A stretch of DNA of 64,000 bases, taken from assembly GCA_020846935.1 (NCBI GenBank), contig JADLCY010000010.1:124001-188000 (forward strand), written 5' to 3'. Source of the DNA: Gemmatimonadaceae bacterium. Lineage in GTDB: Bacteria; Gemmatimonadota; Gemmatimonadetes; Gemmatimonadales; Gemmatimonadaceae. Below the pieces are notes generated by a model. The model saw only the letters and a list, made by a program, of their open reading frames with translations, searched no databases and was not told the origin of the DNA. Of the stretch, positions 40,190-56,367 are shown piece after piece. How positions within the stretch are numbered: the stretch's first letter is position 1; every line of letters begins with the position of its first letter. The position numbers and the translations under genes were made by a program.

Positions 40190-41374
40190 CTATTGTCGGC
40201 GGAGCCAGCCCAGCGGATCCGTCGCGCGGCCCTTGGGCCGGATCTCGAAATGCAGGTGCGGCGCCATCTCCGGGTCGGCGCGGCCCACGGCTCCGATGAC
40301 CTGCCCCTTCGTCACCTGTTGCCCCACGCGCACGTCGGCTCGGCTCAGCGAACCGTAGACGGAGTAGTCGCCACCGCCGTGTTGCACGATGATGGTCAGG
40401 CCGTAGGTGCCGATGGGCGCCACATACGTCACCTCGCCCTGCGCAACGCTGGTCACGTTCGTGCCCGACGGCGCCGCGATGCCCATGCCGTTCCATCGGA
40501 TCGCGGTGTTGTTCGGGTTGATCACGCGCCCAAAGCTGTAGAGGATCTCGCCGTCGACCGGCCAGTCGAGTCGACCAAAATCCGTGGTCTTGAGTGTGCT
40601 GCCCGACGCGGCGCCGGCATTGGGACGCGCTGCCTCGCTGCGACGCCGTGCTTCCTCCATCGAGGCCAGCAGCTGCGCCAGGCGCGCCTCGTCGCGCTGG
40701 ATACGCGCCAGGCGGTCCTGGACCTGCTCCTGGGACTGGCGCACATCGGCCAGCGATCGCTGCCGCTGGCCCTGCATCGAACGCAGCCGGGATTCCTCCT
40801 GCGCCTTCTCGAGCCGATTCCGCTCGATCTCGGTCTGGAGCCGCACGAGCAGCGTGCGCTGCTCGTCGATCTTGTCGTACAGGCCCGTGACCTGCTTGAC
40901 CACGGCGCGATCATGCAGCGCCAGTTCGTGCAGGTACTTGTAGCGGCCCACGAGTTCGGCAAAGGTCCGCGCCGAGAGCAGCGCTTCGGTGGTGTACATC
41001 GGGCCGCGCTTGTAGATGTCCACGAGCCGGTGCTGCAGCGATGAACGCTTGCGCACGACCTCCTGCTGCGCCTTCTGCACCGCATCCTCGGCGGTTTCCA
41101 CGTCGCGGTGGATCTCCACCAGCTGCACGTCGAGCTGGCGCACGAGTCGCGCGGTCGCGTCGGCCTGCCGCCGCAGGTTGGTGGCCTCTTCACTCAGGTC
41201 GTGTGCGCGGCCCTGCAACTCCTGGAGGCGACGCTGCAGGTCGGTGCGTTCCTTCCTGATGGCGTCCAGTTCGTTCTGCTGTTGGCGCAGCCGCTGTTCG
41301 GTCGATTGCGCCGCCAGCACGCCAGGAAGCGCGACGACGACCACCAGCGCCGCGATGCGCACGGCGCGCCTCAC
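40190..41374 (-). CDS. envC: EnvC-type murein hydrolase activator (degenerate LytM/M23 domain)
   Basis: The product is 394 residues from a GTG at 41374 that overlaps the ftsX stop (GTGA). A signal peptide (ALVVVVALPGVLAAQ) is followed by a long coiled coil, about residues 22-250, rich in Gln, Arg and Glu. The C-terminal LytM domain covers about 275-394. Its metal site is degenerate: the usual HxxxD region reads RWNGMGIAAP and the YxH region reads YGSLS, though HLHFE remains. Loss of these residues is typical of EnvC, which activates amidases rather than cutting peptidoglycan. Position after ftsE-ftsX fits FtsEX-controlled septal wall hydrolysis. Confidence 0.9.
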   Translation of the reverse strand: MRRAVRIAALVVVVALPGVLAAQSTEQRLRQQQNELDAIRKERTDLQRRLQELQGRAHDLSEEATNLRRQADATARLVRQLDVQLVEIHRDVETAEDAVQKAQQEVVRKRSSLQHRLVDIYKRGPMYTTEALLSARTFAELVGRYKYLHELALHDRAVVKQVTGLYDKIDEQRTLLVRLQTEIERNRLEKAQEESRLRSMQGQRQRSLADVRQSQEQVQDRLARIQRDEARLAQLLASMEEARRRSEAARPNAGAASGSTLKTTDFGRLDWPVDGEILYSFGRVINPNNTAIRWNGMGIAAPSGTNVTSVAQGEVTYVAPIGTYGLTIIVQHGGGDYSVYGSLSRADVRVGQQVTKGQVIGAVGRADPEMAPHLHFEIRPKGRATDPLGWLRRQ

Positions 41375-42222
41375 GTCACCTTGCGGATCTGCCGGCCCAC
41401 CGACACGGCGCTGCCAAAGACGCCCATGACGGCGCCGCCGAGGATGCCCAGCAGCGAGAGCTGAGCGCCAAAGAACTCGGTGCGGATGAAGTACCGACTG
41501 ATGACGATCGAGGCGACCCACGTGAGCAGGAGCGCCATGAGGCCACCAAGGACTCCCTTCACGAAGCCCTCGACCAGGAACGGGCGACGAATGAAGCCGT
41601 CGGTGGCGCCCACAAGCCGCATGATGGAGATCTCCCTCGCGCGCGCCATCACGGCCATGCGGATGGTCGCGCCAATGATGATCACGGCGACGGCGGCGAA
41701 CGCGAGGCCGAGGATCACACCGGCGGCCGTGGCGATGTTCCGGATGGTGTAGAGCTTCTGCACCCATTCTTCGCCGAACCGCACATCATCCACGATCTCG
41801 CTGGCCCCGATGCGGGCCGCGACGTCGGCGACGGTCTGCGGGGCGCGGTGTCCGTCGGCGAGCCGCACGTCGATCGATGCCGGCAGGAAGCCGGCCTCGA
41901 AGACGTCGCGAAACTCCTGCAGCTCGTTGCGGGCGCGCTCCAGCGCCTGTTCGGGTGAGATGTATTCGACGCGGGACACTTCGGGATACGCACCGATCGC
42001 CTTCATGGCCTCGGAGATCGACTCCACGGTCGCATCTTCCCTGAGGAACGCACGGATCTCCACGCGTGATTCCACCTGCGCCAGGGCCGCGCGCAAGTTC
42101 AGGGCGACCAGGGAGAACAGACCAAACGCGAAGAGCGAAAACGCAATCGTCGTCACGGATAGCGCGCTGAGCATCGGCGCGCGCCGGAACCCGATGAGGG
42201 CTTCGCGAATGACGAGCTTCAT
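41371..42222 (-). CDS. ftsX: Cell division ABC transporter permease subunit FtsX
   Basis: The product is 283 residues with the FtsX pattern: one membrane helix near the N-terminus (about 22-45), an extracytoplasmic domain (about 46-155, ESRVEIRAFLREDATVESIS onward), then three more helices. It carries the conserved TIRMAVMARAREISIMRLVG loop (Glu-Ile and Met-Arg-Leu-Val-Gly) that contacts the ATPase. FtsX transmits ATP-driven motion from FtsE to EnvC across the membrane. Its ATG overlaps the ftsE stop and its stop overlaps the envC start, so all three are translationally coupled. Confidence 0.93.
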   Translation of the reverse strand: MKLVIREALIGFRRAPMLSALSVTTIAFSLFAFGLFSLVALNLRAALAQVESRVEIRAFLREDATVESISEAMKAIGAYPEVSRVEYISPEQALERARNELQEFRDVFEAGFLPASIDVRLADGHRAPQTVADVAARIGASEIVDDVRFGEEWVQKLYTIRNIATAAGVILGLAFAAVAVIIIGATIRMAVMARAREISIMRLVGATDGFIRRPFLVEGFVKGVLGGLMALLLTWVASIVISRYFIRTEFFGAQLSLLGILGGAVMGVFGSAVSVGRQIRKVT

Positions 42223-42977
42223 GGCGTCACCTCGGCCCGGCGCTTCTTCTCGTCCGCCGAGTCAAACACGACCTGCCCACGGTTGATCTCGAGCACGCGA
42301 AACTCGGAACGCTTGACCAGCTCGAGGTTGTGGGTGGCCATGATCACGGCGGTCCCCGCCGCGTTGATCTCCCGCAGGAGCTGAAAGACACCGCGCGTCG
42401 CACGCTCGTCGAGGTTGCCGGTCGGCTCGTCGGCCACGAGCACAAAGGGATCGTTGGCCAGCGCGCGCGCGATGGCGACGCGCTGCTGTTCCCCGCCGCT
42501 CAATTCATTCGGGAAGCTCGTGGCCTTGGAGGCCAGTCCCACCTGCGTCAGGAGACGCGAGACCTTGGCGCGCACCTTGTCAGGCGGGGTGCCGATCACA
42601 TCGAGCGCAAACGCGATGTTGGCCTCGATGGTGCGGTCCTCCAACAGGCGAAAGTCCTGGAAGACGACCCCCAGCTTGCGTCGGAGCATCGCGATCTCGC
42701 GACGCTTGACGCCGTGCGCCTTGGTCCCGCTGACCCACACGTCGCCGCGTGTCGGCAACTCCTGCATGTAGATCAGCTTGAGGATCGAGCTTTTCCCGGC
42801 GCCGCTCGGCCCGGTGAGAAAGACGAACTCCCCCTTGCCCACGAAGAAACTGACGTCGTTGAGCGCGACGCCGGTGCGGGGGTACTCCTTGAAAACGTTG
42901 GCGAACCGGATCAACGGAAGATCGGATGAGGCGACCGCGCGGGACGACGTTGCGTGCCCCGTCTCTCTCTCGGACAC
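42219..42977 (-). CDS. ftsE: Cell division ATP-binding protein FtsE
   Basis: The product is 252 residues from the GTG at 42977. The first 20 residues are an unusual Ser/Ala-rich extension before the ABC fold (LIRFANVFKEYPRTGVALND). Walker A (GPSGAGKSS), signature (LSGGEQQRVAIARAL) and Walker B (VADEPTGNLDE) are intact, together with VVFQDFRLL. FtsE hydrolyses ATP at the divisome and drives FtsX. It is the first gene of the ftsE-ftsX-envC operon. A TACCTT hexamer 13 nt before the start is a possible -10 box. Confidence 0.95.
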   Translation of the reverse strand: MSERETGHATSSRAVASSDLPLIRFANVFKEYPRTGVALNDVSFFVGKGEFVFLTGPSGAGKSSILKLIYMQELPTRGDVWVSGTKAHGVKRREIAMLRRKLGVVFQDFRLLEDRTIEANIAFALDVIGTPPDKVRAKVSRLLTQVGLASKATSFPNELSGGEQQRVAIARALANDPFVLVADEPTGNLDERATRGVFQLLREINAAGTAVIMATHNLELVKRSEFRVLEINRGQVVFDSADEKKRRAEVTP

Positions 42978-43131
42978 TTTGACCGAGCAGAAGGTAACGA
43001 ATTCCGCGCCTCGTCTCCGTGGCGGTTCGTCCTACCGAGCCGCGTTCGACCGCGCGTTGCCCGGCCCGACGGTCGCTGCAGCCGCCGTCCGCAACGAGGC
43101 CAATGACTCGCCGTTGCGGGAGTTGCTCGCC

Positions 43132-44289
43132 CTATCCCAGCGCGCGCTGGACGTCCGCGATGAGGTCGGCGATGTCCTCGATCCCGACGCTGATGCGCAC
43201 GAACCCATCGGGGATGCCGGCGGCGGTGCGCTCTTCGGGAGTGAGTCTGGCGTGGGACGTATAGCGGGGCTCGCTGACGAGTGAGTCCACGCCGCCCAGT
43301 GAGGGGGCGTGCGTGATCACCGAAAGCCGCGAGACGAAGCGTTCGGCGGCCGGCCCGCCGCCCTTCAGCACCAGCGCCATCATGCCGCCGTACCCGGCGA
43401 GCGTGGCGCGCGCGACGTCGTGATCCGGGTGCGAGCCGAGTCCGGGGTAGAGGACCGACGCCACGGACGGATGCGCGGCGCACCATTGTGCGAGGCGCAT
43501 GGCATTCTCGTTGTGGCGCTTCACGCGGACGTCGAGCGTCTTGAGACCGCGTTCGAGCAGCCAGGCCGCGAACGGGTCAGGTGCCTGCCCCCAGAGGATC
43601 ATTCGTCCTCTGACTTCCTCGATGTAGGGCGTGCTGCCCGCGACGACGCCTGCAAGCACGTCGTGGTGCCCATTGAGGTACTTGGTCGCGGAGTGGATCA
43701 CGACGTCGGCGCCGTGCGCGACCGGGCGGAAGTTCACGGGGCTCGCGAACGTGGAGTCCACGACGAGGGCGAGCCCGCTCTCTGCGGCCAGGCGGTGCAG
43801 CTGGCGCACGTCGAGAACACGTGTCGTCGGATTCACGGGCGATTCGACGAAGATGGCGCGCGTCTCCTTGCGCACCTGCTGTCGCCACCCGCGCGATGCG
43901 GTGGGGTCGACGAGCGTGACCTCGATGCCCATCGTCGGGAACTGTTCGAGGAACAGGGCGCGCGTGCCCCCGTAGATCCAGTCGGAGGCCAGCAGGTGGT
44001 CGCCGGGCCGGAGCAGGGCGAGCAGCGCGCACGCGGTCGCGCCCTGGCCGGAGGCGAGGAGCAGCGCCGCTTCGGTGCCTTCGAGCGCGGCGATGGTGGC
44101 CTGCACGCGTTCGGCATTTGGGGCGTTACCGTAGCGCGGGTAGAGCAGGCCGGCCTCGGTACCCACTTGCTGCAGATAGTTGACGGACTGCACCAGCGGG
44201 AAGACGACGGGGGCGCCGGGGTGTGTGGGACCGCCCGGGCCACGAACGGCGACCGTCGGGAGCTGCAGGGGCGAGGGAGGCGTCGGCAT
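43132..44289 (-). CDS. Trans-sulfuration PLP enzyme (cystathionine gamma-synthase/lyase family)
   Basis: The product is 385 residues from the ATG at 44289; the frame extends to 44406, but the upstream residues come from the flanking repeat region. The Cys/Met metabolism PLP-enzyme fold is clear: YPRYGNAPNAERVQATIAAL, EAALLLASGQGATA, FVESPVNPTTRVLD, and HSATKYLNGHHDVLAG with the PLP-binding Lys. The C-terminal SLGGVDSLVSEPRYTSHA is conserved. Members make or cleave cystathionine, or use O-acylhomoserine or methionine. I cannot decide among these from sequence alone. No other methionine gene is adjacent. Confidence 0.9.
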   Translation of the reverse strand: MPTPPSPLQLPTVAVRGPGGPTHPGAPVVFPLVQSVNYLQQVGTEAGLLYPRYGNAPNAERVQATIAALEGTEAALLLASGQGATACALLALLRPGDHLLASDWIYGGTRALFLEQFPTMGIEVTLVDPTASRGWRQQVRKETRAIFVESPVNPTTRVLDVRQLHRLAAESGLALVVDSTFASPVNFRPVAHGADVVIHSATKYLNGHHDVLAGVVAGSTPYIEEVRGRMILWGQAPDPFAAWLLERGLKTLDVRVKRHNENAMRLAQWCAAHPSVASVLYPGLGSHPDHDVARATLAGYGGMMALVLKGGGPAAERFVSRLSVITHAPSLGGVDSLVSEPRYTSHARLTPEERTAAGIPDGFVRISVGIEDIADLIADVQRALG

Positions 44290-44329
44290 CGGCGAGAAGG
44301 CGGGCCTCCATATCTGCGGGCCGTTCCCG

Positions 44330-44440
44330 GCACACCGCAAGGACGCGATGCCGGCGACCGTTACACCAACCTCCGCCGCGAGCATGCCGGAATCCCGCCC
44401 CCGCACACCGCAAGGACGCGACGCCGGTGGTCGCTACACC
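44330..44440. repeat. Pair of 38-bp imperfect direct repeats
   Basis: Copies at 44330-44367 and 44403-44440 both begin GCACACCGCAAGGACGCGA and end TACACC. They differ at about five positions, all transitions, and are 35 bp apart. The second copy overlaps the last codons of the 100-residue ORF. On the minus strand both can read as Ala-Ser-Leu-Arg-Cys-Ala-Gly. They look like a small dispersed repeat family. Confidence 0.6.
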
Positions 44441-44736
44441 TGGCGTCGGTCGTCGACGGAGTCGTAGTCGGGCTTCTGCACCCGGATCACCTCGGAGACG
44501 CCAACGCCGGCGATGTCGCGGAGCACAACACCTCCGCGGGGAATGCTGTCGTCGAGCACGATCGTGGCGAGCTCGCTGCGTCGCGGGCCCTGGATCCACG
44601 CGAGTTCGCGATCGCTCAGCAGGCGGGCCCGGGCTTCTTCGCTGGACATGCGCGCCTGTGGGCCGCGGTCTTCGTCACCGCGGCGCGTGGCGATGAACCC
44701 GATGACGTGGAGCGGCGGGTTGGACCGGATGGTCAC
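44434..44736 (-). CDS. Small hypothetical protein at end of STAS/HATPase operon
   Basis: The product is 100 residues from the ATG at 44736, overlapping the STAS gene stop by 4 nt. It has no signal peptide or membrane segment. Short strands (PLHVIGFIATRRG, ATIVLDDSIPRGGVVLRDI) and a helix with an acidic run suggest a compact alpha/beta domain. Its 3' end lies in one of two 38-bp repeats, so the original C-terminus may have been altered. I recognise no family; the operon suggests a role in the same signalling unit. Confidence 0.55.
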   Translation of the reverse strand: MTIRSNPPLHVIGFIATRRGDEDRGPQARMSSEEARARLLSDRELAWIQGPRRSELATIVLDDSIPRGGVVLRDIAGVGVSEVIRVQKPDYDSVDDRRQV

Positions 44737-45293
44737 GACGGATGCGGCAGCGCGACACCGCCGTCATCGCGCCGGACGACGAGCCGTCGGGCAAACAGCT
44801 CGTCGAGCACGCGGCCGCAGGTTTCGGCCGGCTCGCCGAACTCCGCCTCCACATCGCGGGCGAGGATCGGTCCGCGCTGGCGGACGAGCTGCCAGACGCG
44901 GCGCACGCCATCGTCGAGCGTGCCAACCAGCTTGTGCGTGCCCGCGTCGTCCTGGACGATGACCGCGAGATCATAGCGTTCGAGCACCGCTTCGATGGCC
45001 TCGAGGTGCGCGTCGTGTACGCCCCGGATGAGGAAATACGTGCGCGGCGCGCCGCCGGCGCGCTGGTACGCATCGAGCAGTTTGCCGACGATCTCGTCGG
45101 CACACGAGAAGTCGAGCAGCGTGACGTGCGAGAAGTCGATGACCGTGACGTTCGGCTCGGGCTGCTCGGCAAGCGCTTCCTCGATGGCCTTGCGCACCGT
45201 CGCACCGGTGGGCCGGGTGACGAGGTTGGAATAGAGGTCGCAGACCGTTCGGCGGAGCACGGAGCTGACGTCGATGGCGATATGGTACGTCAT
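44733..45293 (-). CDS. STAS-like protein (DUF4325 type) with C-terminal winged-helix region
   Basis: The product is 186 residues from the ATG at 45293; a longer open frame to 45716 is a shadow. Residues 35-115 have the STAS-like pattern VTVIDFSHVTLLDFSCADEI, as in DUF4325 proteins and anti-anti-sigma factors. The C-terminal 60 residues (VWQLVRQRGPILARDVEAEF, then AETCGRVLDELFARRLV) resemble a winged helix. STAS domains bind anti-sigma kinases, often controlled by Ser phosphorylation in a partner switch. The gene overlaps both neighbours by 4 nt and follows a Bergerat-fold ATPase gene, a natural partner. The DNA-binding role of the tail is inference. Confidence 0.7.
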   Translation of the reverse strand: MTYHIAIDVSSVLRRTVCDLYSNLVTRPTGATVRKAIEEALAEQPEPNVTVIDFSHVTLLDFSCADEIVGKLLDAYQRAGGAPRTYFLIRGVHDAHLEAIEAVLERYDLAVIVQDDAGTHKLVGTLDDGVRRVWQLVRQRGPILARDVEAEFGEPAETCGRVLDELFARRLVVRRDDGGVALPHPS

Positions 45294-46180
45294 CGCGTCA
45301 CCACCCGCTCGGGAATGGTGATCTGGACCTGGGCGCCCGGGAACGCCGCGAGCGACTCGCGGAGCGGCACATCGTCGTCCCATCCGGGGACGATGGCGAT
45401 GCGCGCGGTGCCGCTGCGGATGGCCAGCTTGCCGTCCCACTTGCCCACGTAGCGCCGCACGCCGGCCAGGCCCTGACCACGACCGGGGTCGCGAAACCGG
45501 CTGACGCCACGGATCAACGCGTCCTCGAGCGCCATCGCGTCGTCCCAGCGGTCGCTCAGCTTGCGCCCCTGCGCACTCTCCAGCGACTTGCGAAAGCCGA
45601 TGCCCGCATCGCAGACCGCGATCACGACCACGCGGCGTCCGAGCCGCTGCCGATAGCGATACGTCTGTACGGCCACCCAGCCCGTCGTGCCCGCGTGCTC
45701 CACGATGTTCTGACAAACCTCCGAAAGCGTCATGGCAAAGCGCATCGTCGCCAACGGGTCGAGGTTCAGCTCGTTGACGAGGATCGCCTGCGCCTTCAGC
45801 TGGATCTTTTCGACGACATCGTGCACGTCGTCGCTCTTCGCGACGGCGGTGATCTCGAGCAGCACGTTCGATTCGCCCGCCGAGCCTCGCGGGCGCGGCA
45901 CGTGGCCGTGCATCTCGAACAACCGCTCGGCGTGATCGTAGAACCCGGCCCGCTGCCAGTAGCTCGCCGTCTCTTCCGTCTCCGGTCCGGTGAACGCCGC
46001 GCGCTCGGCACGCGTCTGTGCCAGGGTCAGCAGCGCCGTCAGCCCGTACGGCGACGACCAGCGCGTGTGACGCGCGTCCACCAGCACCTTCTGATCGAGC
46101 GGGAGTGGGGCGAGCTGCTCGAGCACGTGTTCGAACGTCTGGTCGTCGAGCGAAGGCGGGACGGTAATGACAGAGGTCAC
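45290..46180 (-). CDS. STAS-like plus HATPase (anti-sigma/histidine kinase-like) protein
   Basis: The product is 296 residues. The N-terminal 100 residues look STAS-like (KVLVDARHTRWSSPYGLTAL). The C-terminal part has Bergerat ATPase motifs: N box LSEVCQNIVEHA (about 151-162), G1 box VCDAGIGF (about 189-196) and G2 GRGQGLAGV (about 233-241). There is no His phosphoacceptor domain and no membrane segment, so it is closer to RsbW/SpoIIAB-type kinases or regulatory ATPases than to a sensor kinase. The gene overlaps the PfkB gene upstream and the STAS gene downstream by 4 nt each. It may phosphorylate the STAS partner; this is inferred. Confidence 0.75.
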   Translation of the reverse strand: MTSVITVPPSLDDQTFEHVLEQLAPLPLDQKVLVDARHTRWSSPYGLTALLTLAQTRAERAAFTGPETEETASYWQRAGFYDHAERLFEMHGHVPRPRGSAGESNVLLEITAVAKSDDVHDVVEKIQLKAQAILVNELNLDPLATMRFAMTLSEVCQNIVEHAGTTGWVAVQTYRYRQRLGRRVVVIAVCDAGIGFRKSLESAQGRKLSDRWDDAMALEDALIRGVSRFRDPGRGQGLAGVRRYVGKWDGKLAIRSGTARIAIVPGWDDDVPLRESLAAFPGAQVQITIPERVVTR

Positions 46181-47199
46181 GAAGGAATCAATTCGCCGCG
46201 GAGATGGTGCGCGAGGCCGGATGCACCGCGAAACTCGACGTTGCGCGCCGCGGCTCGCACGGCGGAGGGTAACGCGACCGAAAACGTATCACCGCAAACG
46301 AGCCGCGCAAAGAGTGTGGCGCCGAACACGTCGCCGCATCCCGTCGGATCCTGTTCGGGCCCCTTGACACGCACGCGATCCGCAGGCACGCGCGCTGTTT
46401 CCACTGCGCCCGCCACGAACGCGGCAGCACCGCGACGCCCTGCATCGTCCAGTGTCTGGAATCCGGGCGCGTTCACGTACACCACGCCGCGCGCACCCAG
46501 CGTCACCACCAACGAAGACACGCCGCAGTTCATGGCCGTCGCCGCCAGCGCCATCGGATCCGGCGCAATGAGGCGCATTTCATCCTCATTCACCTGAACG
46601 AGATCGAAGCACCGTAACCATCCTTCGGCGTTCACGAGCGGACGCGGCGTGCGCAGGCCGCCCGGCTGCACCGCCAGCAGCAGCGAGTGCAGGTCGCAGT
46701 AGATGGGGCCCCGAAAATGTTGACGGATCAACTGCGCGACCTCGAGGTCGAGTTCGAAGCCGCTCAGCAGGTTGATGTACAGGGCGTCGATGTCGCGCAG
46801 CAACGGCTTGAGCCCCAGCCAGTGCCAGGGAGGCACCCCGCCCGTGAGCACCTCGGAGCGCCGTTCCTCGCTGGTGTATCGAAGTTCGACACGGTTGTTC
46901 TGCACCGGCACGATGATCGGTTCGGCATCAGGCGCGATGCGGCGCAGGCCGCGCAGGAACTCGCGCGCGCGCGCCGCGAGGTCTGCCCCGACCTTCACGA
47001 GCGGAACGACTTGCCAATCGTTAGTCAGCGCGGCGTCGAGGGCCGACAAGGCATACGTCACGCCGCCCCACTCCTCGATGGGCGCCCGACGCGCGTCCCG
47101 GCCGTAGATCACGTCCCAGACAAAGGAGCCGATCACTCCCAGCCGCCGCGGGCCCGAAGGGCGCTCGTCCGGGCTGGCGAACGGCCTCTCAGCGGTCAT
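46177..47199 (-). CDS. PfkB-family carbohydrate kinase
   Basis: The product is 340 residues. The ribokinase fold is recognisable from LGVIGSFVWDVI near the N-terminus and the C-terminal signature DPTGCGDVFGATLFARL with the catalytic Asp. Substrate-site residues are diverged from ribokinase and fructokinase, and an insertion around 95-130 contains VPVQNNRVELRYTSEERR. It should phosphorylate a sugar, nucleoside or related alcohol. It lies 6 nt after a ROK kinase gene and overlaps the ATPase gene, so carbohydrate phosphorylation and the STAS/ATPase unit are expressed together. Confidence 0.82.
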   Translation of the reverse strand: MTAERPFASPDERPSGPRRLGVIGSFVWDVIYGRDARRAPIEEWGGVTYALSALDAALTNDWQVVPLVKVGADLAARAREFLRGLRRIAPDAEPIIVPVQNNRVELRYTSEERRSEVLTGGVPPWHWLGLKPLLRDIDALYINLLSGFELDLEVAQLIRQHFRGPIYCDLHSLLLAVQPGGLRTPRPLVNAEGWLRCFDLVQVNEDEMRLIAPDPMALAATAMNCGVSSLVVTLGARGVVYVNAPGFQTLDDAGRRGAAAFVAGAVETARVPADRVRVKGPEQDPTGCGDVFGATLFARLVCGDTFSVALPSAVRAAARNVEFRGASGLAHHLRGELIPS

Positions 47200-47205
47200 G
47201 CCACG

Positions 47206-48204
47206 TCACACTGCGTCCACGGCCTGCTGTCGGAATGTAGCCACCGCGCCCACCACGCCCGCGGTCCCCGGCAGTGAGCCCGGAACGATGCGGCAGGCGT
47301 CCACCGCCGGCCGAAACGCGCGGCGGCGCACTTCGCGGCGCAGCGGCACGAACAGCGGATCCCCGGCCTGCGTTACGCCGCCCGCGATCACCACGACGTC
47401 CGGGTTGTAGACGTTGAGGAGGTTCGCGAGCCCGGTCCCGAGGAACACGGCGGTTTCGCGAACCACCTCGAGCGCCACGACGTCGTCGCGCTTGGCCGCA
47501 TCGTACACGATCGCGGCGGTGAGTTTCGACAGGTCGTTGTCCACCATGGCGTAGAGCATCGAGGGCTGGTCGCCGCCAAGCGCCTCGCGCGCACGCTCGG
47601 CGATGCTCGGCCCGGAGGCGTAGGCTTCGAGGCAGCCGTAGTTGCCACAGCCGCAGCGTCGGCCGGTGATGTCGATGGTCATGTGCCCGATCTCACCCGC
47701 CACGTCCGAGGCGCCGTGGTAGAGCTTGCCGTCGAGGATCAGCCCCCCGCCGATGCCGGTTCCGATGGTCATGCCCACCACATTGCGCCCGCCCCTGGCG
47801 GCACCCAGCCACCACTCGCCGAGCGTCGCACAGTTCGCGTCGTTGTCGAGCGTGGCCGGAAGGCCCACGCGGTCAGCGATGACCTGCCGCAACGGAAAGT
47901 TTGTCCAGCCAAGGTTGGGCGTCGTGATGACGATGCCCTTCTCGCGATCGAGCGGCCCCGGCGCGCCCACGCCGACGCCGAGACACTGGTCGCGCTTGAG
48001 CCCCGCCGCCATCGTCTCGGCGATCACGGTGTCGATCATGCGCACCATGCGATCCACCACGGCGTCCGCGCCCTGGGTCGCGCGCGTCGGCTCGGATCGC
48101 ATGGCGTATTCGGTGGCGCCGTCGTCGCTGAGTGAGCCGACCACGATGTTGGTGCCGCCAAGGTCGACACCGACAATGAACTTCGAGGCCTTTCTCGCGG
48201 GCAT
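47206..48204 (-). CDS. ROK-family glucokinase
   Basis: The product is 332 residues from the ATG at 48204. ROK features are complete: phosphate-1 motif GVDLGGTNIVVG, substrate block TLDNDANCATLGEWWLGA with the catalytic Asp, GIGGGLILDGKLYHG, HMTIDITGRRCGCGNYGCLE with the zinc-binding Cys cluster, and VVVIAGGVTQAGD. There is no N-terminal HTH, so it is a kinase rather than a ROK repressor. It most likely phosphorylates glucose with ATP; other hexoses are possible. It leads the operon that continues with PfkB, HATPase and STAS genes. Confidence 0.92.
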   Translation of the reverse strand: MPARKASKFIVGVDLGGTNIVVGSLSDDGATEYAMRSEPTRATQGADAVVDRMVRMIDTVIAETMAAGLKRDQCLGVGVGAPGPLDREKGIVITTPNLGWTNFPLRQVIADRVGLPATLDNDANCATLGEWWLGAARGGRNVVGMTIGTGIGGGLILDGKLYHGASDVAGEIGHMTIDITGRRCGCGNYGCLEAYASGPSIAERAREALGGDQPSMLYAMVDNDLSKLTAAIVYDAAKRDDVVALEVVRETAVFLGTGLANLLNVYNPDVVVIAGGVTQAGDPLFVPLRREVRRRAFRPAVDACRIVPGSLPGTAGVVGAVATFRQQAVDAV

Positions 48205-48254
48205 GGCGCGAAGAGTGAAGGAAATCGTGTGCCGGACGCGCGTCGAAATCTATC

Positions 48255-49037
48255 CTAGCCCAGGAGCCCGACGCCGCGCGCCACCACGAGACCGCCGAGG
48301 ACGAGCACGGTCACCGCGAACCCCTGCTTGATCCGCCGCTGCGGTACGCGAGGCGCGAGCCGCGTCCCGATGATCGCGCCGACCGCCGCCACTCCGGTGA
48401 ACTCGGCGGCGAGTCGCCAATGAATGGGGACGATCCCGATGTACCCGATGAAGCCGGACAGTCCGTTGACCATGATGATGAACAGGGAACTCCCGACCGC
48501 GGCACGCACCGGCACGCGTGCGAGCAGGACGAGCGCGGGCACGATCACAAAGCCGCCTCCGGCGCCGATGAGCGACGTCAACACGCCGACGGCAACGGCC
48601 TGAACAGCGAGCAGCGGGGTGAAGCGCACGTTCGCGACGCTGCTCTCCGGTGCGCTGGCGGGCGCGCGCATCCCATCGCGCAACATGAGGAGCGCGGCGG
48701 CCCCGGCAAAGATCACGAACAGCGTGAGCTGAACCTGGGCGGGTACCTGGTGGGCGATTCGCGCCGTGGCGAACGCGCCGATCATCGCCAGCGCTCCAAA
48801 GGGCAGCGCGATGCGCATGTGCACCGTGCCCTGCCGCCAGTGGGACACAAACCCAACCGCGGCGCTCATGCCGACCACCGCGAGGCTCATGGCCACCGCG
48901 GATTTGGTGGGCACGTGAAACACGTACAGGAAGATCGGCAGCGCCAGGATCGAGCCGCCACCACCGAGCAGCCCAAGGACCAATCCAACCACGAGGGCCA
49001 GCGCGAGGCCCAGCATGCCGTGGGAGACGGGGTCCAC
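48255..49037 (-). CDS. TauE/SafE-family membrane permease
   Basis: The product is 260 residues from a GTG at 49037, abutting the glycosyltransferase stop. About eight hydrophobic segments form two similar halves; each begins with a Gly-rich turn (GLVLGLLGGGGSILALP and VLTSLIGAGGGFVIVPALVL), the hallmark of TauE/SafE (DUF81) proteins. Members export sulfite, sulfoacetate or other organosulfur anions. A methionine/cysteine-type PLP enzyme is encoded 4 kb away, but no direct sulfur gene is adjacent, so the substrate is open. Confidence 0.9.
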   Translation of the reverse strand: MDPVSHGMLGLALALVVGLVLGLLGGGGSILALPIFLYVFHVPTKSAVAMSLAVVGMSAAVGFVSHWRQGTVHMRIALPFGALAMIGAFATARIAHQVPAQVQLTLFVIFAGAAALLMLRDGMRAPASAPESSVANVRFTPLLAVQAVAVGVLTSLIGAGGGFVIVPALVLLARVPVRAAVGSSLFIIMVNGLSGFIGYIGIVPIHWRLAAEFTGVAAVGAIIGTRLAPRVPQRRIKQGFAVTVLVLGGLVVARGVGLLG

Positions 49038-50078
49038 TTAGCGTCGTTCGTTGAGGAGTGCCGTAGTGGCCATGAGGACGCGGTCGGGCAACAGGTCCAG
49101 CATGCACCGAAAATGCCCGAGGGGACAGGTGGCCGGCCCGTGTGCCGAACACGGGCGGCACGCGAGATTGGACACCTCGGCGATGCTGCTTCGCTGGGCG
49201 AGGGGGCCGAAACCGAACCGCGTCACGGTCGGGCCAAAGATCGCGACCGTCGGCGTGTTCATCGCCGAGGCGAGGTGCAGTGGCGCGGAGTCGTTGGTAA
49301 CCAGCACACGTGCCCTCGCAATGAGTGCGGCCGAGCCGAGGAGTGAGAGCTGTCCGGTCGCATCGATGGCCGAGGGTGAGGCGGCGGCGATATCTCGCGC
49401 GAGCGCGCTGTCGGCCTCGCTTCCGAGGACAACCACCCGCCCCAGCGCGGAGAGGTCCCTGGCGAGCGCCGGAAAGAAGGGCCAGCGCTTGGTCGCCCAC
49501 ACGCTGCCGGGTGCGAGCGCGATCAATGGTTCACCAAGGGCGCCGTGCTCGTTGAGCAGCACCTCGACGCGCGCCTCGTCGCGGGCGGCGGGATAGAGGC
49601 GTGGTCGCAGCTGATCCGCCGTCGGTGCGTCCGGCGACCGCGCGAGTCGCCACAGGCGATCGGCGTGATGCAGACCGTCTGTAGGGGTGATGCGCGTGGT
49701 GTACCAGAGGCGGCCCGTCGAGGTCGCGAATCCCACGCGCTCACGGTATCCGGCGGCCCGTGCGAGCAGACCGCTCCGATGAGATCCCTGCGCGAGGTAG
49801 GCGACCGCCTGCCGATCGTCGGTGCGCAGTGCGCGCACCATGCGCTGGAAGCCGCGGACGCCCGCGTCGGCGCCGCGCTTGTCGTACACGATGACGCGGG
49901 ACACGCCGGGATGGTGAGCGAACAGCGCGGCCGCTGCCCGGGTGACGACCAGCGAGACCGGTCCGCGACGAGCCAGCTCCGCGATGAGTGGCGTCGTGAG
50001 CACGGCATCGCCGATGAACGAGGTCTGGACGATGAGCGAGGAGGTCAAGCGTGCGCTGGGTCGTTTCCCTACAGCCAA
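49038..50078 (-). CDS. Glycosyltransferase family 9 (ADP-heptose:LPS heptosyltransferase-like)
   Basis: The product is up to 346 residues. The start is unsure: TTG at 50078 or TTG at 50048, the latter just before LIVQTSFIGDAVLTTPLIAE, the conserved N-terminal GT9 motif. The C-terminal half has IALAPGSVWATKRWP, VVLGSEADSALA, VLVTNDSAPLHLASAMNTPT and VAIFGPTVTRFGFGP, which form the nucleotide-heptose site. Four Cys near the C-terminus are unusual (CRPCSAHGPATC, then RC). It should add heptose to the LPS core, supporting a Gram-negative envelope. It is divergent from the metal-locus genes. Confidence 0.88.
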   Translation of the reverse strand: MAVGKRPSARLTSSLIVQTSFIGDAVLTTPLIAELARRGPVSLVVTRAAAALFAHHPGVSRVIVYDKRGADAGVRGFQRMVRALRTDDRQAVAYLAQGSHRSGLLARAAGYRERVGFATSTGRLWYTTRITPTDGLHHADRLWRLARSPDAPTADQLRPRLYPAARDEARVEVLLNEHGALGEPLIALAPGSVWATKRWPFFPALARDLSALGRVVVLGSEADSALARDIAAASPSAIDATGQLSLLGSAALIARARVLVTNDSAPLHLASAMNTPTVAIFGPTVTRFGFGPLAQRSSIAEVSNLACRPCSAHGPATCPLGHFRCMLDLLPDRVLMATTALLNERR

Positions 50079-50136
50079 ATCACGGTGGTCGACGTATATC
50101 TAACACTGGCTGTCGACCCTCACGTCGCGACGTCCC

Positions 50137-50505
50137 GTGGCCATCCGCAAGCTCGGCGCAACGATCTATCTGCTGTGGCTCGCCCTGTACCTGGGTGCGC
50201 CGCAGCCGATGCATCATTGTCCGGAGCACAGCCCGGTCGTGGCCGCCACCGCGTCCGCGCCAACAGGACACGCCCATCACGGCGGAGGCGATACTCCGGA
50301 GCCGGAGCAGCACAAGTGCTGCTGCCCGGGGCCGCAGTGCGGCACCACGGCACTCGTCGTTGTCGACGCGCCGAGGTTCTCCGCGGAGGTACCAGCGCAC
50401 GACGGCAGCCGCCCGCCCGCGAGGGAGCAGCGGCCGGTTCCGCTGCGTGGCCCGCACGTTCTTCCGTTCGCCACGGCTCCCCCGGCGTCGACGCGCCTGA
50501 CGTGA
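50137..50505 (+). CDS. Small exported Cys/His-rich protein (DUF2946-like)
   Basis: The product is 122 residues from a GTG at 50137. A hydrophobic N-terminal signal (YLLWLALYLGA) precedes three metal-ligand clusters: MHHCPEH, GHAHHGG and HKCCCPGPQCG. The rest is Pro/Arg/Ala-rich. Short His/Cys-rich exported proteins of this kind are common beside TonB receptors in copper or related metal loci. The next gene, on the same strand after 156 nt, is a TonB receptor. A role in metal binding or delivery in the periplasm is likely; the metal is inference (copper is the best guess). Confidence 0.7.
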   Translation: MAIRKLGATIYLLWLALYLGAPQPMHHCPEHSPVVAATASAPTGHAHHGGGDTPEPEQHKCCCPGPQCGTTALVVVDAPRFSAEVPAHDGSRPPAREQRPVPLRGPHVLPFATAPPASTRLT

Positions 50506-50661
50506 GCGCGCGGTCGTAGACACAGGAGTTCGGCGCCTTCCTCCGGAGGTCCGCCGCACGCGTCAGGCACATCCGTCACGACTCGGCGACTTCCCGCCGC
50601 GTCCTCTCGCGCGCTCGCGACCCATCGGTCGTGCACGCAACCTTGAGCCACGGATCTTCCG

Positions 50662-52989
50662 ATGCCTGCCAATGCACGGCGCTTCCTGCGCCGTTCCTCC
50701 CTCTTGTTGTTTCTCGCCGTCCCGTTCACGGCGAGCGGTGCCCAGCAGTCTGGCGCGCTGCGCGGCGTCATCACCGACTCCTCGACCCGGCTGCCCGTGG
50801 GCGACGTGACCGTCGCCGTGCGCGGCACGACGCGTGGGGCGATCTCGGACGCGAATGGTCGCTACAGCATCGCTGGCCTGCCGCCGGGTCCGCAGGTCAT
50901 CGTGGTGCAGCGGGTGGGCTACACGCCGCGCACCCTCGATGTCCAGCTCTCGGCAGCAAGCACCACCGAGCTGGACGTGATGCTCGTTGTCGCTGCGCAG
51001 GTCATCACTCCCGTCGTGGTCTCGGCCACGCGCGAGCTGCAGCGACGCACGGAGGCGTCGGCAACGATTGATGTGCTCGACGGTGCCGCGATGCGGGAAG
51101 CACGCGCGGCGCACCCGGCCGCGCTTGTGAGCCGCATCCCGGGTGTTCACGTGTCGCAGCTCTCGGGCGAAGGGCACTCGACCGCGATCCGGCAGCCGAT
51201 CACGACCAAGCCGCTCTACCTCTACCTGGAAGACGGTGTCCCGACGCGCTCCACCGGCTTCTTCAATCACAACGCCCTGTACGAGGTGAACTTGCCGCAG
51301 GCCGGCGGGCTGGAGGTGCTCAAGGGCCCCGGCACGGCGTTGTACGGCAGCGACGCGATCGGTGGCGTGATCAACGCGCTCACGCGCCCAGCACCCGCGT
51401 CGCCCACGGTGGACCTCGCGCTGGAGGCAGGCGACTACGGGTACCGTCGCTTCCTCGCCACCGGAGGCTTCTCACCCGGCTCGCAGGGCCTTCGCATGGA
51501 CCTCAACGTCACGAAGGCCGACGGCTTCAAGCGTGATGCCCCGTACGAGCGCACGAGTGCCACCGTTCGCCACGATCTCGCCACTTCGAAGGGCATCGCG
51601 TTCCGCACCGTGCTCTCGGGCTCGTCGGTTGACCAGCGCGACGTCGTCGCGCTCAACGCGTCCAACTTCGGCACGCGACCCAACCTCAACCTCTCGCCGA
51701 TTGCCTTCCGCGACGTGCAGGCGCTCCGGTGGTCCACCGCGGTCGAAGTCGATCGAGGCGCCACGTCGATCAGCCTCACGCCGTTTGCGCGACACAACGT
51801 GCTGGGTCTGCTCCCCAACTGGCAACTCACGTTCAACCCCGAGGTCTGGGACACGCGCAACGACTCGTACGGTCTGCTCGCGCGCGTCCGGCGCGACCTC
51901 ACGCCGATGCGCACGCGCGTCATTGCGGGTGTCGACGTGGACTACTCGCCCGGGTCGGTCCTGATCGAGGGCATCACGCCCCGCTCGGCCGGCAACGACA
52001 ACGCGTGGACGACCTACACGAAGGGGGCTGTCCACTACGACTACGACGTCACGTATCGCCAGGCTTCGCCGTACCTGCACGTGGAGGTGTCGCCGATCGC
52101 GCGCGCGCGTCTGGACGTTGGCCTCCGGTACGACAACAGCAGCTACGCCTACGACACGCACCTTCCCGTGCTGCAGACCGGTCGCTTCCGGGTGCCAGCC
52201 GACACGTCGCTCCGCTTCTCGCGCTGGAGCCCGAAAGTCGGGCTCACGGTCGACGTGACGCCGCAGCTCAACGTGCACGCGTCGTGGCGCCAGGGATTCC
52301 GGGCGCCGGCGCAGGGCCAGCTCTTCCAGCAGGGCGCGAACCTCAACACCACCGGCCTCGATCCCGTCACCGCGACGAGCCGCGAACTCGGTGTGCGTGG
52401 GGTGCTCGGCCACCGCGTGCTGTACAGCGTGGCGTGGTACGACATGCGCGTGGAGAACGACATCCTGAGCATCCTCGACGCGACGGGGACGTCGACGTCG
52501 TCGAATGCCGGTGCGACGCGCCATCACGGGATCGAGTCCGCGCTCGGCGCGCTCCTTGTGCCTTCGGTGCGCGTCGACCTCGCGTGGAGCACCGCGACGC
52601 AGCGCTACGTCAACTGGGTGATCCCTGTGCAGAGACACAACGTGAGCTACGGTGGCCGCACCATCGAGCAGGCGCCGCATACCCTCGGCAACGCGCTCGT
52701 GACATGGACGCCGGCGATCCTCCGCGGTGGTCGGCTCGCGGTGGAGTGGTCGCACACGGGTCGCTACTACATGGATCCCGAGAACACGCATCGATACGAC
52801 GGCTTCCAGCTCTGGACCCTGCACGGCAACTGGCACGTGCGCGGCGCCGAGATCTTCGCGCGCGTCGTGAACCTCGACGACCGGAAATACGCCGAAATCG
52901 CCACGTACGACGCGTTCAACCGCGAGCGGTTCACCCCGGGCAGCCCGCGCATGGTGTACGCCGGCGCGCGGTGGACCTGGCAGCGCTGA
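50662..52989 (+). CDS. TonB-dependent outer membrane receptor
   Basis: The product is 775 residues with a signal peptide ending near TASGAQQ. A carboxypeptidase-regulatory-like domain occupies about 28-110 (GRYSIAGLPPGPQVIVVQRV). The plug runs from about 118 to 240, with SATRELQRRTEASATIDVLD and LEVLKGPGTALYGSDAIGGV. The barrel ends in an aromatic position (RWTWQR). The length fits siderophore or metal receptors rather than SusC proteins, and the gene has no SusD partner. Upstream is a Cys/His-rich exported protein and downstream, after 10 nt, a BNR lipoprotein with Cys clusters. Metal or metallophore uptake is the likely role. Confidence 0.92.
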   Translation: MPANARRFLRRSSLLLFLAVPFTASGAQQSGALRGVITDSSTRLPVGDVTVAVRGTTRGAISDANGRYSIAGLPPGPQVIVVQRVGYTPRTLDVQLSAASTTELDVMLVVAAQVITPVVVSATRELQRRTEASATIDVLDGAAMREARAAHPAALVSRIPGVHVSQLSGEGHSTAIRQPITTKPLYLYLEDGVPTRSTGFFNHNALYEVNLPQAGGLEVLKGPGTALYGSDAIGGVINALTRPAPASPTVDLALEAGDYGYRRFLATGGFSPGSQGLRMDLNVTKADGFKRDAPYERTSATVRHDLATSKGIAFRTVLSGSSVDQRDVVALNASNFGTRPNLNLSPIAFRDVQALRWSTAVEVDRGATSISLTPFARHNVLGLLPNWQLTFNPEVWDTRNDSYGLLARVRRDLTPMRTRVIAGVDVDYSPGSVLIEGITPRSAGNDNAWTTYTKGAVHYDYDVTYRQASPYLHVEVSPIARARLDVGLRYDNSSYAYDTHLPVLQTGRFRVPADTSLRFSRWSPKVGLTVDVTPQLNVHASWRQGFRAPAQGQLFQQGANLNTTGLDPVTATSRELGVRGVLGHRVLYSVAWYDMRVENDILSILDATGTSTSSNAGATRHHGIESALGALLVPSVRVDLAWSTATQRYVNWVIPVQRHNVSYGGRTIEQAPHTLGNALVTWTPAILRGGRLAVEWSHTGRYYMDPENTHRYDGFQLWTLHGNWHVRGAEIFARVVNLDDRKYAEIATYDAFNRERFTPGSPRMVYAGARWTWQR

Positions 52990-52999
52990 GGAAGCAGAC

Positions 53000-54286
53000 A
53001 TGCGACGCCTGATTGCGGCGGTTGCCGCTACCTCCATCGCCTGCGCGGGACGCCCGGACGTCACGCTGCAGCCGGAAGAAGTGCTCACGGCAGGCGCGAC
53101 GGCCGGTGCCGCTCCCATGTTCGCCGTGGCGCCTTCCGGTGCGCGTACGGTGGCATGGGTGAGCGCGCCTGACCGCGGGAGCGACGGTCGGCTCTTCACC
53201 TCGACCGCCGGTGCCGAGCCGAGCGAACTCCAGGACCCGTTGGGCGGGATCGAGGCGCACGGGGAATCGCCGCCCAAGCTGACCTATGCGCCGGACGGCA
53301 CACTGCACGCCCTCTACGTCGTCGGCAAGGTGATCCAGGGCCGCCGCTTCCCGTTCTCGACGCTTCGCCTCGTGTCGTCGCACGATGGTGGAGCGACGTG
53401 GAGCGCACCGGCCACCGTCACCGGCGATTCCGTGCTCGGTTCGCGGAACTTTCACGCCATGCACGCGGCCGCCGACGGCACGATCTACGTGGCGTGGCTC
53501 GAATCACGCGACAATCGCCGCAGCGGCACGTTCATCACGCGGTCCACTGACGGCGGCGCTACGTGGAGCCAGGCGGTACGCGCCGATTCCACCGAGTCAT
53601 GCCCGTGCTGCCGCACGGCGATCGCCTCAGCCACCGATGGCACACTCTACCTGGCGTGGCGTACCGTCATGCCGGGGAACGTGCGCGACATCGTCGTCGC
53701 TGCGTCGAAGGACCACGGGGCAACGTGGAGCCCGGCGCAGCGCGTTCACGCCGACGGCTGGGTGTTCGACGGCTGCCCGCACGCCGGCCCGGCGCTCCAC
53801 GTTGGCGCTGATGGCGCCGTGCACGTGGCGTGGTGGACCGGGAAGGAGGGTGCAGCCGGTGTGTTCTACGCGAAGTCGACCGACGGCGCACAGACCTTCC
53901 TGGCCCCGGTCGCGCTGGGGACTGCCGCGTTCTCGCGGCCGGCACACGTGCAACTCGCCCTCGACGGCCCGTCCACGGTCGTCGCCGCGTGGGACGATGG
54001 TCGTGACACGATCCCGCGGATCCTGGTGCGCGTGTCGCGCGACGGGGGCGCAACGTTCGGTGAGGCGGTGACTGCAAGCGACGCAACCGTCGCCGCAAGC
54101 TTCCCGGTACTCGCGGTGCGCGACAGCGCGATTACAGTGGCATGGTCGCAGCAGAGCAAGGCCGCAATGGACCACGCGGCGAACGCGCGCCCCAACATGA
54201 AGGATCCGCACGCGCTGATGCCGTTGCCGGTCGTGGGCGATCAGCGGGTGGTGGTACGAAGGGGGAAGATCCAGGGACGTCGTTGA
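53000..54286 (+). CDS. BNR-repeat (sialidase-like) lipoprotein with CPCC motif
   Basis: The product is 428 residues; GAGGAAG provides the ribosome site. A lipoprotein signal (AAVAATSIACAG) gives Cys at about residue 15. The body is a beta-propeller with Asp boxes (SSHDGGATWS, RSTDGGATWS, ASKDHGATWS, KSTDGAQTF, VSRDGGATF). Two conserved Cys elements interrupt it, ESCPCCRTAIA and VFDGCPHAGPA, plus an HADGW segment. Sialidase catalytic Arg triad and Tyr/Glu are not evident, so enzymatic activity is doubtful. It follows the TonB receptor gene by 10 nt and probably works with it at the outer membrane. Metal binding by the CPCC site is inference. Confidence 0.8.
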   Translation: MRRLIAAVAATSIACAGRPDVTLQPEEVLTAGATAGAAPMFAVAPSGARTVAWVSAPDRGSDGRLFTSTAGAEPSELQDPLGGIEAHGESPPKLTYAPDGTLHALYVVGKVIQGRRFPFSTLRLVSSHDGGATWSAPATVTGDSVLGSRNFHAMHAAADGTIYVAWLESRDNRRSGTFITRSTDGGATWSQAVRADSTESCPCCRTAIASATDGTLYLAWRTVMPGNVRDIVVAASKDHGATWSPAQRVHADGWVFDGCPHAGPALHVGADGAVHVAWWTGKEGAAGVFYAKSTDGAQTFLAPVALGTAAFSRPAHVQLALDGPSTVVAAWDDGRDTIPRILVRVSRDGGATFGEAVTASDATVAASFPVLAVRDSAITVAWSQQSKAAMDHAANARPNMKDPHALMPLPVVGDQRVVVRRGKIQGRR

Positions 54287-54318
54287 CCGCTGCTTCGTAC
54301 TTGCAGCGTAGCCGTGCT

Positions 54319-54357
54319 GCTGGCTGGAGCTGCGCCTCGCGCTCCGGCCCAGCCAGC
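54319..54357. terminator. Stem-loop between convergent BNR lipoprotein and lepA genes
   Basis: GCTGGCTGG (54319-54327) pairs perfectly with CCAGCCAGC (54349-54357), with additional GC pairing possible inside the 21-nt loop. It lies between convergent gene ends, so it may serve both strands. Confidence 0.45.
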
Positions 54358-54413
54358 TACATCAGGTCCAGCAGTCAGTACCAGTACCGGCAAGCTGCAA
54401 GCAACCCGCCCTG

Positions 54414-56213: not shown

Positions 56214-56367
56214 GGCGTGCGGGCAGGTCCGGGGTTGCAGTCGAGTCCACCCGGGTCGGTCCCGGGCGCGCCGGAACCGCCTCGAGCGGCCAAGCCTACC
56301 AATCTAAAGGGGTCCGCCGATCGCATCGGAGAACCCCCTCTGATTCCTCGGGCTCGAGCCCGCCGGG

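Follow-up and report, generated by a model that had tools for sequence, protein, structure and literature searches.

Two adjoining genes in the window, a 64,000-nucleotide stretch of contig JADLCY010000010.1 from a Gemmatimonadaceae bacterium (positions 124,001 to 188,000), encode a predicted serine kinase with STAS and GHKL domains, here called HAT, and a STAS-winged-helix protein, here called SWH. Judged by sequence comparison, the pair is a variant of the CapK/CapS switch in which the kinase lacks the N-terminal helix-turn-helix (HTH) domain. We favour the reading, at a probability of about 0.6, that HAT and SWH form a domesticated CapK/CapS-type kinase-substrate phosphoswitch whose output is probably off DNA. 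CapK (HTH-STAS-GHKL) is activated by single-stranded DNA (ssDNA) and phosphorylates CapS, a STAS protein with a winged HTH (wHTH), on S54; once phosphorylated, CapS no longer holds together as a dimer and comes off its palindromic operator (Chambers et al., EMBO J 2026, PMC13373217). CapK/CapS is a control switch of phage defence and is associated with immune operons. Deletion of the CapK HTH has no effect, N218 is the essential kinase Asn, and W68, the counterpart of F54 in VapK, stacks against ssDNA and is needed for activation by it; in the VapKSC variant, the kinase has no HTH and a toxin is the target (PMC13373217).

Kinship of HAT and SWH with CapK and CapS

HAT and SWH belong to a run of five genes, all on the minus strand, with the following features:

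47206..48204, minus strand, ROK-family sugar kinase (Pfam ROK, TIGR00744, PDB match 2qm1)
46177..47199, minus strand, divergent PfkB/ribokinase-like kinase (Pfam PfkB, DPTGCGD motif)
45290..46180, minus strand, HAT, STAS-GHKL predicted serine kinase of the CapK/VapK/RsbW type without N-terminal HTH, GTG start
45908..46180, minus strand, STAS domain of HAT (residues 1-91), with P44 replacing the phospho-acceptor as P97 does in CapK (AF2 secondary structure, PDB profiles 4hyl and 1sbo, column comparison)
45695..45721, minus strand, N-box of HAT, E154-x3-N158-x3-H162, spaced as E214/N218/H222 in CapK (99/99 conserved, CapK alignment)
44733..45293, minus strand, SWH, STAS-winged-helix protein, predicted phospho-substrate of HAT and CapS relative
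45105..45107, minus strand, codon of SWH Ser63, predicted phosphosite aligning with CapS S54 (conservation, CapS alignment)
44751..44912, minus strand, winged-helix domain of SWH (residues 128-181) with degenerate DNA-reading positions (model, Foldseek, conservation and charge, family alignment)
44434..44736, minus strand, small protein of 100 amino acids with weak likeness to Molydop_binding

We used the Enterobacter roggenkampii proteins CapK and CapS (WP_001567866.1 and WP_001567865.1; L183) as the reference pair. The HAT profile aligned with that of CapK over residues 11-257 (hhalign E = 1.9e-11, 97%), and CapK residues E214, N218, H222 and P97 fell on HAT E154, N158, H162 and P44. SWH matched CapS with an hhalign E-value of 2.2e-4 (probability 45%) and, by hmmsearch within a 12-sequence file, at 6e-7, with HTH-less plasmid pairs as intermediates (1e-16). 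CapS residues D52, S54, E58 and G21 align with SWH D61, S63, E67 and G30, and the CapS structure 9z71 was the top PDB profile match of SWH; CapK itself gave no matches against the PDB. The kinship of SWH with CapS is thus argued from aligned motifs, matching architecture and the partner protein. The original prediction had described the unit as undescribed, a view that the publication of CapK/CapS in June 2026 (PMC13373217) overtakes; the literature that we searched contains no version that is HTH-less, belongs to the core genes, is linked to sugar kinases and carries a degenerate DNA-reading domain, and papers on DUF4325 and on Gemmatimonadota operons gave no function.

The HATPase_c domain of HAT passes its Pfam cut-off (6e-7), while the STAS domains of HAT and SWH both stay below theirs in the window proteins. 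Among 17 HAT relatives scanned with Pfam, the HATPase was found in 17/17 and STAS_2 in 6. HAT residues 4-95 gave PDB profile matches to the STAS structures 4hyl and TM1442, and the ATPase part to RsbW and CheA. An AlphaFold2 (AF2) model with a predicted local distance difference test (pLDDT) of 86 supports the predicted STAS domain, and Foldseek matched HAT to histidine-kinase CA domains, CheA P4, SpoIIAB and RsbW. N158 is Asn in all ungapped rows of the family alignment. Residue 176, beside the CapK K237/K239 columns, is invariantly aromatic (W/Y/F).

The AF2 model of SWH (pLDDT 89; predicted TM-score, pTM, 0.84) places a predicted winged helix behind a STAS domain, and Foldseek likewise matched its N-terminal half to RsbS (probability 1.0) and its C-terminal half to winged-helix proteins (target TM-scores up to 0.8), in agreement with the fold that had been proposed earlier. 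The STAS region weakly matches DUF4325 (PF14213), best at 1e-3 and in 3/16 members, the window protein being below the cut-off. Ser63 is Ser in 94/95 Gemmatimonadota sequences (92/93 rows of the family alignment) and in 31/31 from Nitrospirota/Desulfobacterota, names that here denote the phylum samples of L110 (Thermodesulfovibrionia) and L109 (Deltaproteobacteria) respectively. Profile, fold and family evidence thus upholds the earlier description of an RsbW-like GHKL kinase adjoining a STAS protein.

The gene junctions are tight. Exactly 6 nt separate ROK from PfkB, and the PfkB/HAT, HAT/SWH and SWH/small junctions each overlap by 4 bp, as GTGA, ATGA and GTGA respectively; HAT starts at the GTG of the first overlap, where its conserved N-terminus begins. 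The coordinates bear out five co-directional genes with a first gap of 6 nt, and of the ATGA overlap claimed for every later junction the 4 bp stand but the ATGA applies to HAT/SWH only, the two others being GTGA with GTG starts.

The pair and its neighbours in Gemmatimonadota

HAT was found in 280/298 sampled genomes of the phylum Gemmatimonadota, in most as a single copy, and was absent from the six genomes of family f11, which lies outside the class Gemmatimonadetes. SWH accompanied it in 25/25 HAT-positive genomes and occurred in 2/19 HAT-negative or near-negative ones, those two at contig ends. The same held outside the phylum, with HAT in 24/198 Nitrospirota and 7/198 Desulfobacterota genomes and SWH in 28/31 HAT-positive versus 1/40 HAT-negative genomes (20 + 20). 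Kinase and STAS protein, as predicted, behave as a pair, with near-strict co-occurrence. The order ROK-PfkB-HAT-SWH is nearly constant across 110 loci and thus conserved across the class, as the earlier note had proposed to check; PfkB and HAT overlap by 4 bp in 81/102 loci, and HAT and SWH by 4 or 1 bp in 60/107. Such repeated overlaps are more than chance.

Because part of the Gemmatimonadota chromosome conserves gene order generally (PMC11237797), we compared the flanks of Gemmatimonadales loci with those of loci outside this order. ROK lies at most 1.6 kb upstream of the pair in 36/37 Gemmatimonadales loci and 23/23 outside, PfkB directly upstream of HAT in 46/46 and 23/25 (two loci being without PfkB), and SWH beside HAT in 25/25 outside. 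By comparison, FtsE linkage fell from 34/34 to 0/23 and GT9 linkage from 27/29 to 0/20. The four-gene block therefore holds more firmly than most of the neighbouring gene order, since ROK, PfkB and SWH remain linked where FtsE and GT9 are lost. The pair also has LepA close by in 24/24 loci within Gemmatimonadales and 17/20 outside.

The block can nevertheless come apart. Two genomes of family f8 (G096 and G177; L189 and L190) carry ROK-PfkB-Cys/Met in order without HAT and SWH, by clean loss or ancestral absence, and in G109 the HAT-SWH pair stands without any PfkB match in the genome and without ROK in the 9 kb examined around it. Several other HAT-negative genomes of the class end a contig at the locus, where absence may be an assembly gap. 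Because f8 keeps the kinases alone and G109 the pair alone, HAT-SWH is a unit of its own that is usually, but not necessarily, found with sugar kinases.

These data bear on a reading in which the pair merely hitch-hikes in a slowly rearranging chromosome stretch and its linkage to the kinases is translational convenience rather than function. Gemmatimonadota chromosomes do have a conserved domain of high strand bias in which core genes and clusters for cell division abound (PMC11237797), and in which the window may or may not lie; the constancy of LepA and the separability of pair and kinases in both directions point the same way. Against this, the four-gene block outlasts the loss of the flanking FtsE and GT9 linkage, and we consider hitch-hiking possible but not the likely explanation.

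In the window itself, the run continues upstream with GT9 and TauE and downstream with a Cys/Met pyridoxal-phosphate enzyme, FtsE, FtsX and an M23 peptidase. Positions 40190-56303 correspond to a conserved cluster, LepA ... GT9-ROK-PfkB-HAT-SWH-small-Cys/Met-FtsE-FtsX-M23 peptidase, in which TauE stands between GT9 and ROK in 5 loci only. A 122-amino-acid open frame on the plus strand (50137-50505), between GT9 and a TonB receptor, had no Pfam match.

The winged helix of SWH and the operator of its relatives

A recognition-helix pattern (Asn plus [RQ]L) and a glycine-bearing wing are common to CapS and all other relatives examined. In the family alignment, the N..[RQ]L motif is absent from Gemmatimonadota SWH, and the CapS DNA-contact residues N145, K151 and G169-G170 are not kept. 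Counting columns conserved at 85% or more, the winged helix has 19 in Nitrospirota/Desulfobacterota, 9 in Gemmatimonadales and 4 in the other Gemmatimonadota orders, with the conserved STAS columns about equal among the three groups (40-45). At equal STAS divergence (bins 0.5-0.8), winged-helix identity was 0.25-0.49 in Gemmatimonadota versus 0.50-0.65 in Nitrospirota/Desulfobacterota, and the net charge of the domain is +6 in Nitrospirota/Desulfobacterota, -2.5 in Gemmatimonadales and +1 in the other Gemmatimonadota orders. The Gemmatimonadota winged helix has kept its fold and the protein its phosphosite, and the DNA-reading residues are lost. Both Gemmatimonadota groups conserve W134, at a position that is occupied differently in other phyla, and R131 and R169-R170-L171 are conserved in Gemmatimonadales; these residues could form a new contact surface.

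Outside the phylum, the pair keeps different company. No ROK or PfkB relatives were found in the stretches around the Nitrospirota/Desulfobacterota loci. An inverted repeat of 19 bp, TTCAATTGA-T-TCAATTGAA, lies around SWH at these loci, giving TTCAATTGATTCAATTGAA as the target sequence of a candidate Nitrospirota SWH operator; its arms lie one base apart, like those of the narrow CapS site TTAAaTTAA. Exactly 17 nt after TTGACA, 11/16 palindromes begin, their first six bases at the place of the -10 hexamer and mostly preceded by TG, as in an extended -10. In Nitrospirota, the conserved promoter and its palindrome directly follow HAT and precede either SWH or restriction-modification cargo. Allowing up to two mismatches, the palindrome occurs in 23/31 HAT-positive and 1/34 HAT-negative genomes, mostly once per genome at the HAT-SWH locus (the exceptions are G500, with several sites, and G298, where the backward control also matches). 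It is absent from all Gemmatimonadota genomes scanned (0/9), which may have operators of other types.

Several loci carry a type II restriction-modification cassette between HAT and SWH, a different one in each, with TdeIII, MvaI/BcnI, BglII or EcoO109I families and N6/N4 methylases. Islands of the form HAT-promoter/palindrome-variable cassette-SWH include L163, L164, L165, L172, L174 and others (e.g. G389:C73:6576-12989), and apparently represent a CapK/CapS-like controller of exchangeable cargo. HTH-less pairs also reside on plasmids, beside ThiF (Bub-like) operons in Janibacter (L186:5920-7399; its SWH homologue is annotated DUF4325) and Cytobacillus (L187:5959-7473), and further in Nostoc (L185:5902-7422). 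A tblastn search of plasmids with the window SWH as query found no relative; a Nitrospirota query did retrieve HAT relatives. Both the restriction-modification or ThiF cargo and the operator are in line with a repressor controlling defence genes, and elsewhere in the family SWH is, on this comparison, very probably a DNA-binding repressor of defence or restriction-modification genes.

Could SWH of Gemmatimonadota have stayed such a regulator, a repressor or activator of changed specificity that HAT phosphorylation releases from its own operon or from distant genes? The confidently predicted winged-helix fold, profile matches of SWH to MarR/ArsR-type regulators, a net charge still near +1 in helix 3 plus turn, and the action on DNA of CapS (PMC13373217) and, by operator evidence, of Nitrospirota SWH all argue in that direction. 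The recognition positions, however, are unconserved and the domain is acidic in Gemmatimonadales; a search for an operator upstream of ROK yielded no shared 7-mer above the shuffled range in 59 upstream stretches, no match to a sigma70-type promoter consensus was found within 43000-50700, and the HAT/SWH overlap leaves no operator space between the two genes. We therefore judge continued DNA binding rather unlikely. Because the recognition residues are lost and the operator is absent, the target of SWH in this phylum would no longer be DNA, and its output has probably moved elsewhere. Of the earlier suggestion that the STAS-winged-helix protein acts on DNA directly, the fold has thus held up; direct action is not supported, the recognition residues being gone and the operator not found in this phylum.

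Four points weigh against a domesticated switch acting off DNA. The SWH-CapS profile match is weak by itself (45%); the HAT column aligned with W68, the aromatic by which CapK binds its signal, holds Ser10; a winged helix of degenerate appearance may yet bind DNA with an altered specificity; and the recognition residues were lost in one clade only, which makes a single evolutionary event.

Sugar kinases, the proposed switch and known systems

The ROK gene, the sole ROK match in the source genome, encodes a protein well above the Pfam ROK cut-off (E = 1.8e-69). It scored 242.2 bits against the glucokinase model TIGR00744 (curated cut-off 260.35), and its best PDB structures are glucokinases, 2qm1 being the closest (1.5e-58); by these matches the protein is glucokinase-like. 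The PfkB-like protein barely exceeds the Pfam PfkB cut-off (27.3 versus 25.8 bits), but its DPTGCGD catalytic motif (D290) is intact and conserved in at least 95% of 89 sequences. A search of the PDB for its substrate gave nothing at 1e-8, only generic ribokinase matches at 2e-7 or weaker, the best being a ribokinase at 2e-7. The small protein is restricted to near relatives (Gemmatimonadales) and, by matches to Pfam Molydop_binding at 1.3e-3 (below the cut-off) and to a PDB profile at 8e-3, appears to resemble weakly the C-terminal molybdopterin-binding domain of dimethyl sulfoxide/trimethylamine N-oxide reductases. Conserved RGP and RD motifs were noted in it. NCBIfam had no match for HAT, SWH or the small protein.

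According to the original prediction, the unit signals sugar status, HAT-SWH regulating the ROK and PfkB kinases or being regulated by them. The persistence of the ROK/PfkB linkage where that of FtsE and GT9 vanishes, the 81 PfkB-HAT overlaps in 102 loci and the catalytic motifs kept in both kinases would suit this idea. Yet the coupling is argued from synteny, and pair and kinases are separable: f8 has the kinases without the pair, G109 and two more loci have the pair without PfkB, and in other phyla the pair is unlinked to sugar kinases. We regard sugar-status signalling as doubtful, and that a sugar kinase is the target of SWH is guessed from gene order; these separable cases weaken the guess.

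A classical anti-sigma partner switch of the RsbW/RsbV kind, with sigma factor and phosphatase elsewhere, is very improbable, for although HAT has an RsbW/SpoIIAB-type N-box and Foldseek matches to SpoIIAB and RsbW, both proteins have the two-domain CapK/CapS architecture and the only SpoIIE phosphatase of the genome sits in a separate canonical cassette. That cassette, STAS-HATPase_c_2-GAF/SpoIIE, lies between Pta and KsgA (G000:C14:38161-40618; L184:1662-4119) and contains the sole SpoIIE match; the window pair is hence not the genome's only partner switch. With this cassette found and no sigma factor in the operon, the sigma/anti-sigma reading was set aside; the earlier observation that no sigma factor is nearby was correct among the genes named in the run.

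Homology, architecture, conservation of active site and phosphosite, co-occurrence, the operator in relatives and the loss of recognition residues were computed directly. On the reading of a domesticated phosphoswitch, HAT would be a serine kinase whose own STAS domain cannot be phosphorylated at the usual site, which has Pro for Ser. In response to some signal, HAT would phosphorylate Ser63 of SWH, where helix 2 of the STAS domain begins; homology and conserved residues make this step most likely. By analogy with CapS and VapS, phospho-Ser63 may then break an SWH dimer or a complex of SWH with a partner. The output of SWH would most likely be an interaction of another kind, possibly with a protein that the same operon encodes. 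In Gemmatimonadota the pair would have settled between PfkB and the downstream gene as a core cassette passed on by vertical inheritance. HAT sequences from the phylum form one clade (100/100 support), with the root unsure and the outgroups on very long branches; given that root, the direction of change, domestication of a defence switch, is likely but not proven. A fuller scenario, in which a defence-type DNA-damage switch was domesticated once, at or near the origin of the class, became nearly universal, moved off DNA and now controls the sugar kinases translated with it, or is controlled by them, through protein binding that depends on phosphorylation, seems unlikely as a whole.

The comparison places the CapK/CapS switch in a much wider family, with HTH-less pairs in at least five phyla, which guard restriction-modification cassettes in Nitrospirota and are fixed core genes in the whole class Gemmatimonadetes. 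It offers a natural comparison of the same kinase and phosphosite with an intact or a degenerate DNA-reading domain, along with an operator and a phosphosite that both lend themselves to testing, for how a defence regulator turns housekeeping; in Gemmatimonadetes, what was once a regulator of defence may now serve as a housekeeping switch.

Among known systems, the window pair shares with CapK/CapS a STAS-GHKL kinase followed by an adjoining STAS-wHTH substrate, the equivalent phosphoserine, the kinase Asn, the Pro in the kinase STAS domain and, as CapK/CapS is described, the lack of a dedicated phosphatase in view. It differs in that HAT begins with its STAS domain, that the pair stands in a sugar-kinase operon rather than an immune operon and is a core chromosomal gene set of a whole class, that N145, K151 and the wing glycines are missing, and that no palindromic operator was found when 9 Gemmatimonadota genomes were scanned for the Nitrospirota palindrome. 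The HAT-SWH pairs of Nitrospirota/Desulfobacterota and of plasmids resemble it in both proteins, the HTH-less kinase and the S63 motif, but have an intact recognition helix, restriction-modification genes with an operator or ThiF/Bub-like operons, and no ROK-PfkB. VapKSC, as described (PMC13373217), likewise has a STAS-GHKL kinase without HTH, and the C-terminal part of VapS acts on a protein, a precedent for a non-DNA output; unlike VapKSC, the operon encodes no VapC/PIN protein, and SWH has a full winged helix where VapS has a short C-terminal helix. SpoIIAB/SpoIIAA and RsbW/RsbV share the GHKL fold, the E-x3-N-x3-H spacing of the N-box and the STAS helix-2 serine, whereas the window proteins are two-domain, with no sigma factor or dedicated phosphatase nearby. 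DUF4325 (PF14213), finally, is a STAS-like family of unknown function to which the STAS region of SWH is weakly related by profile.

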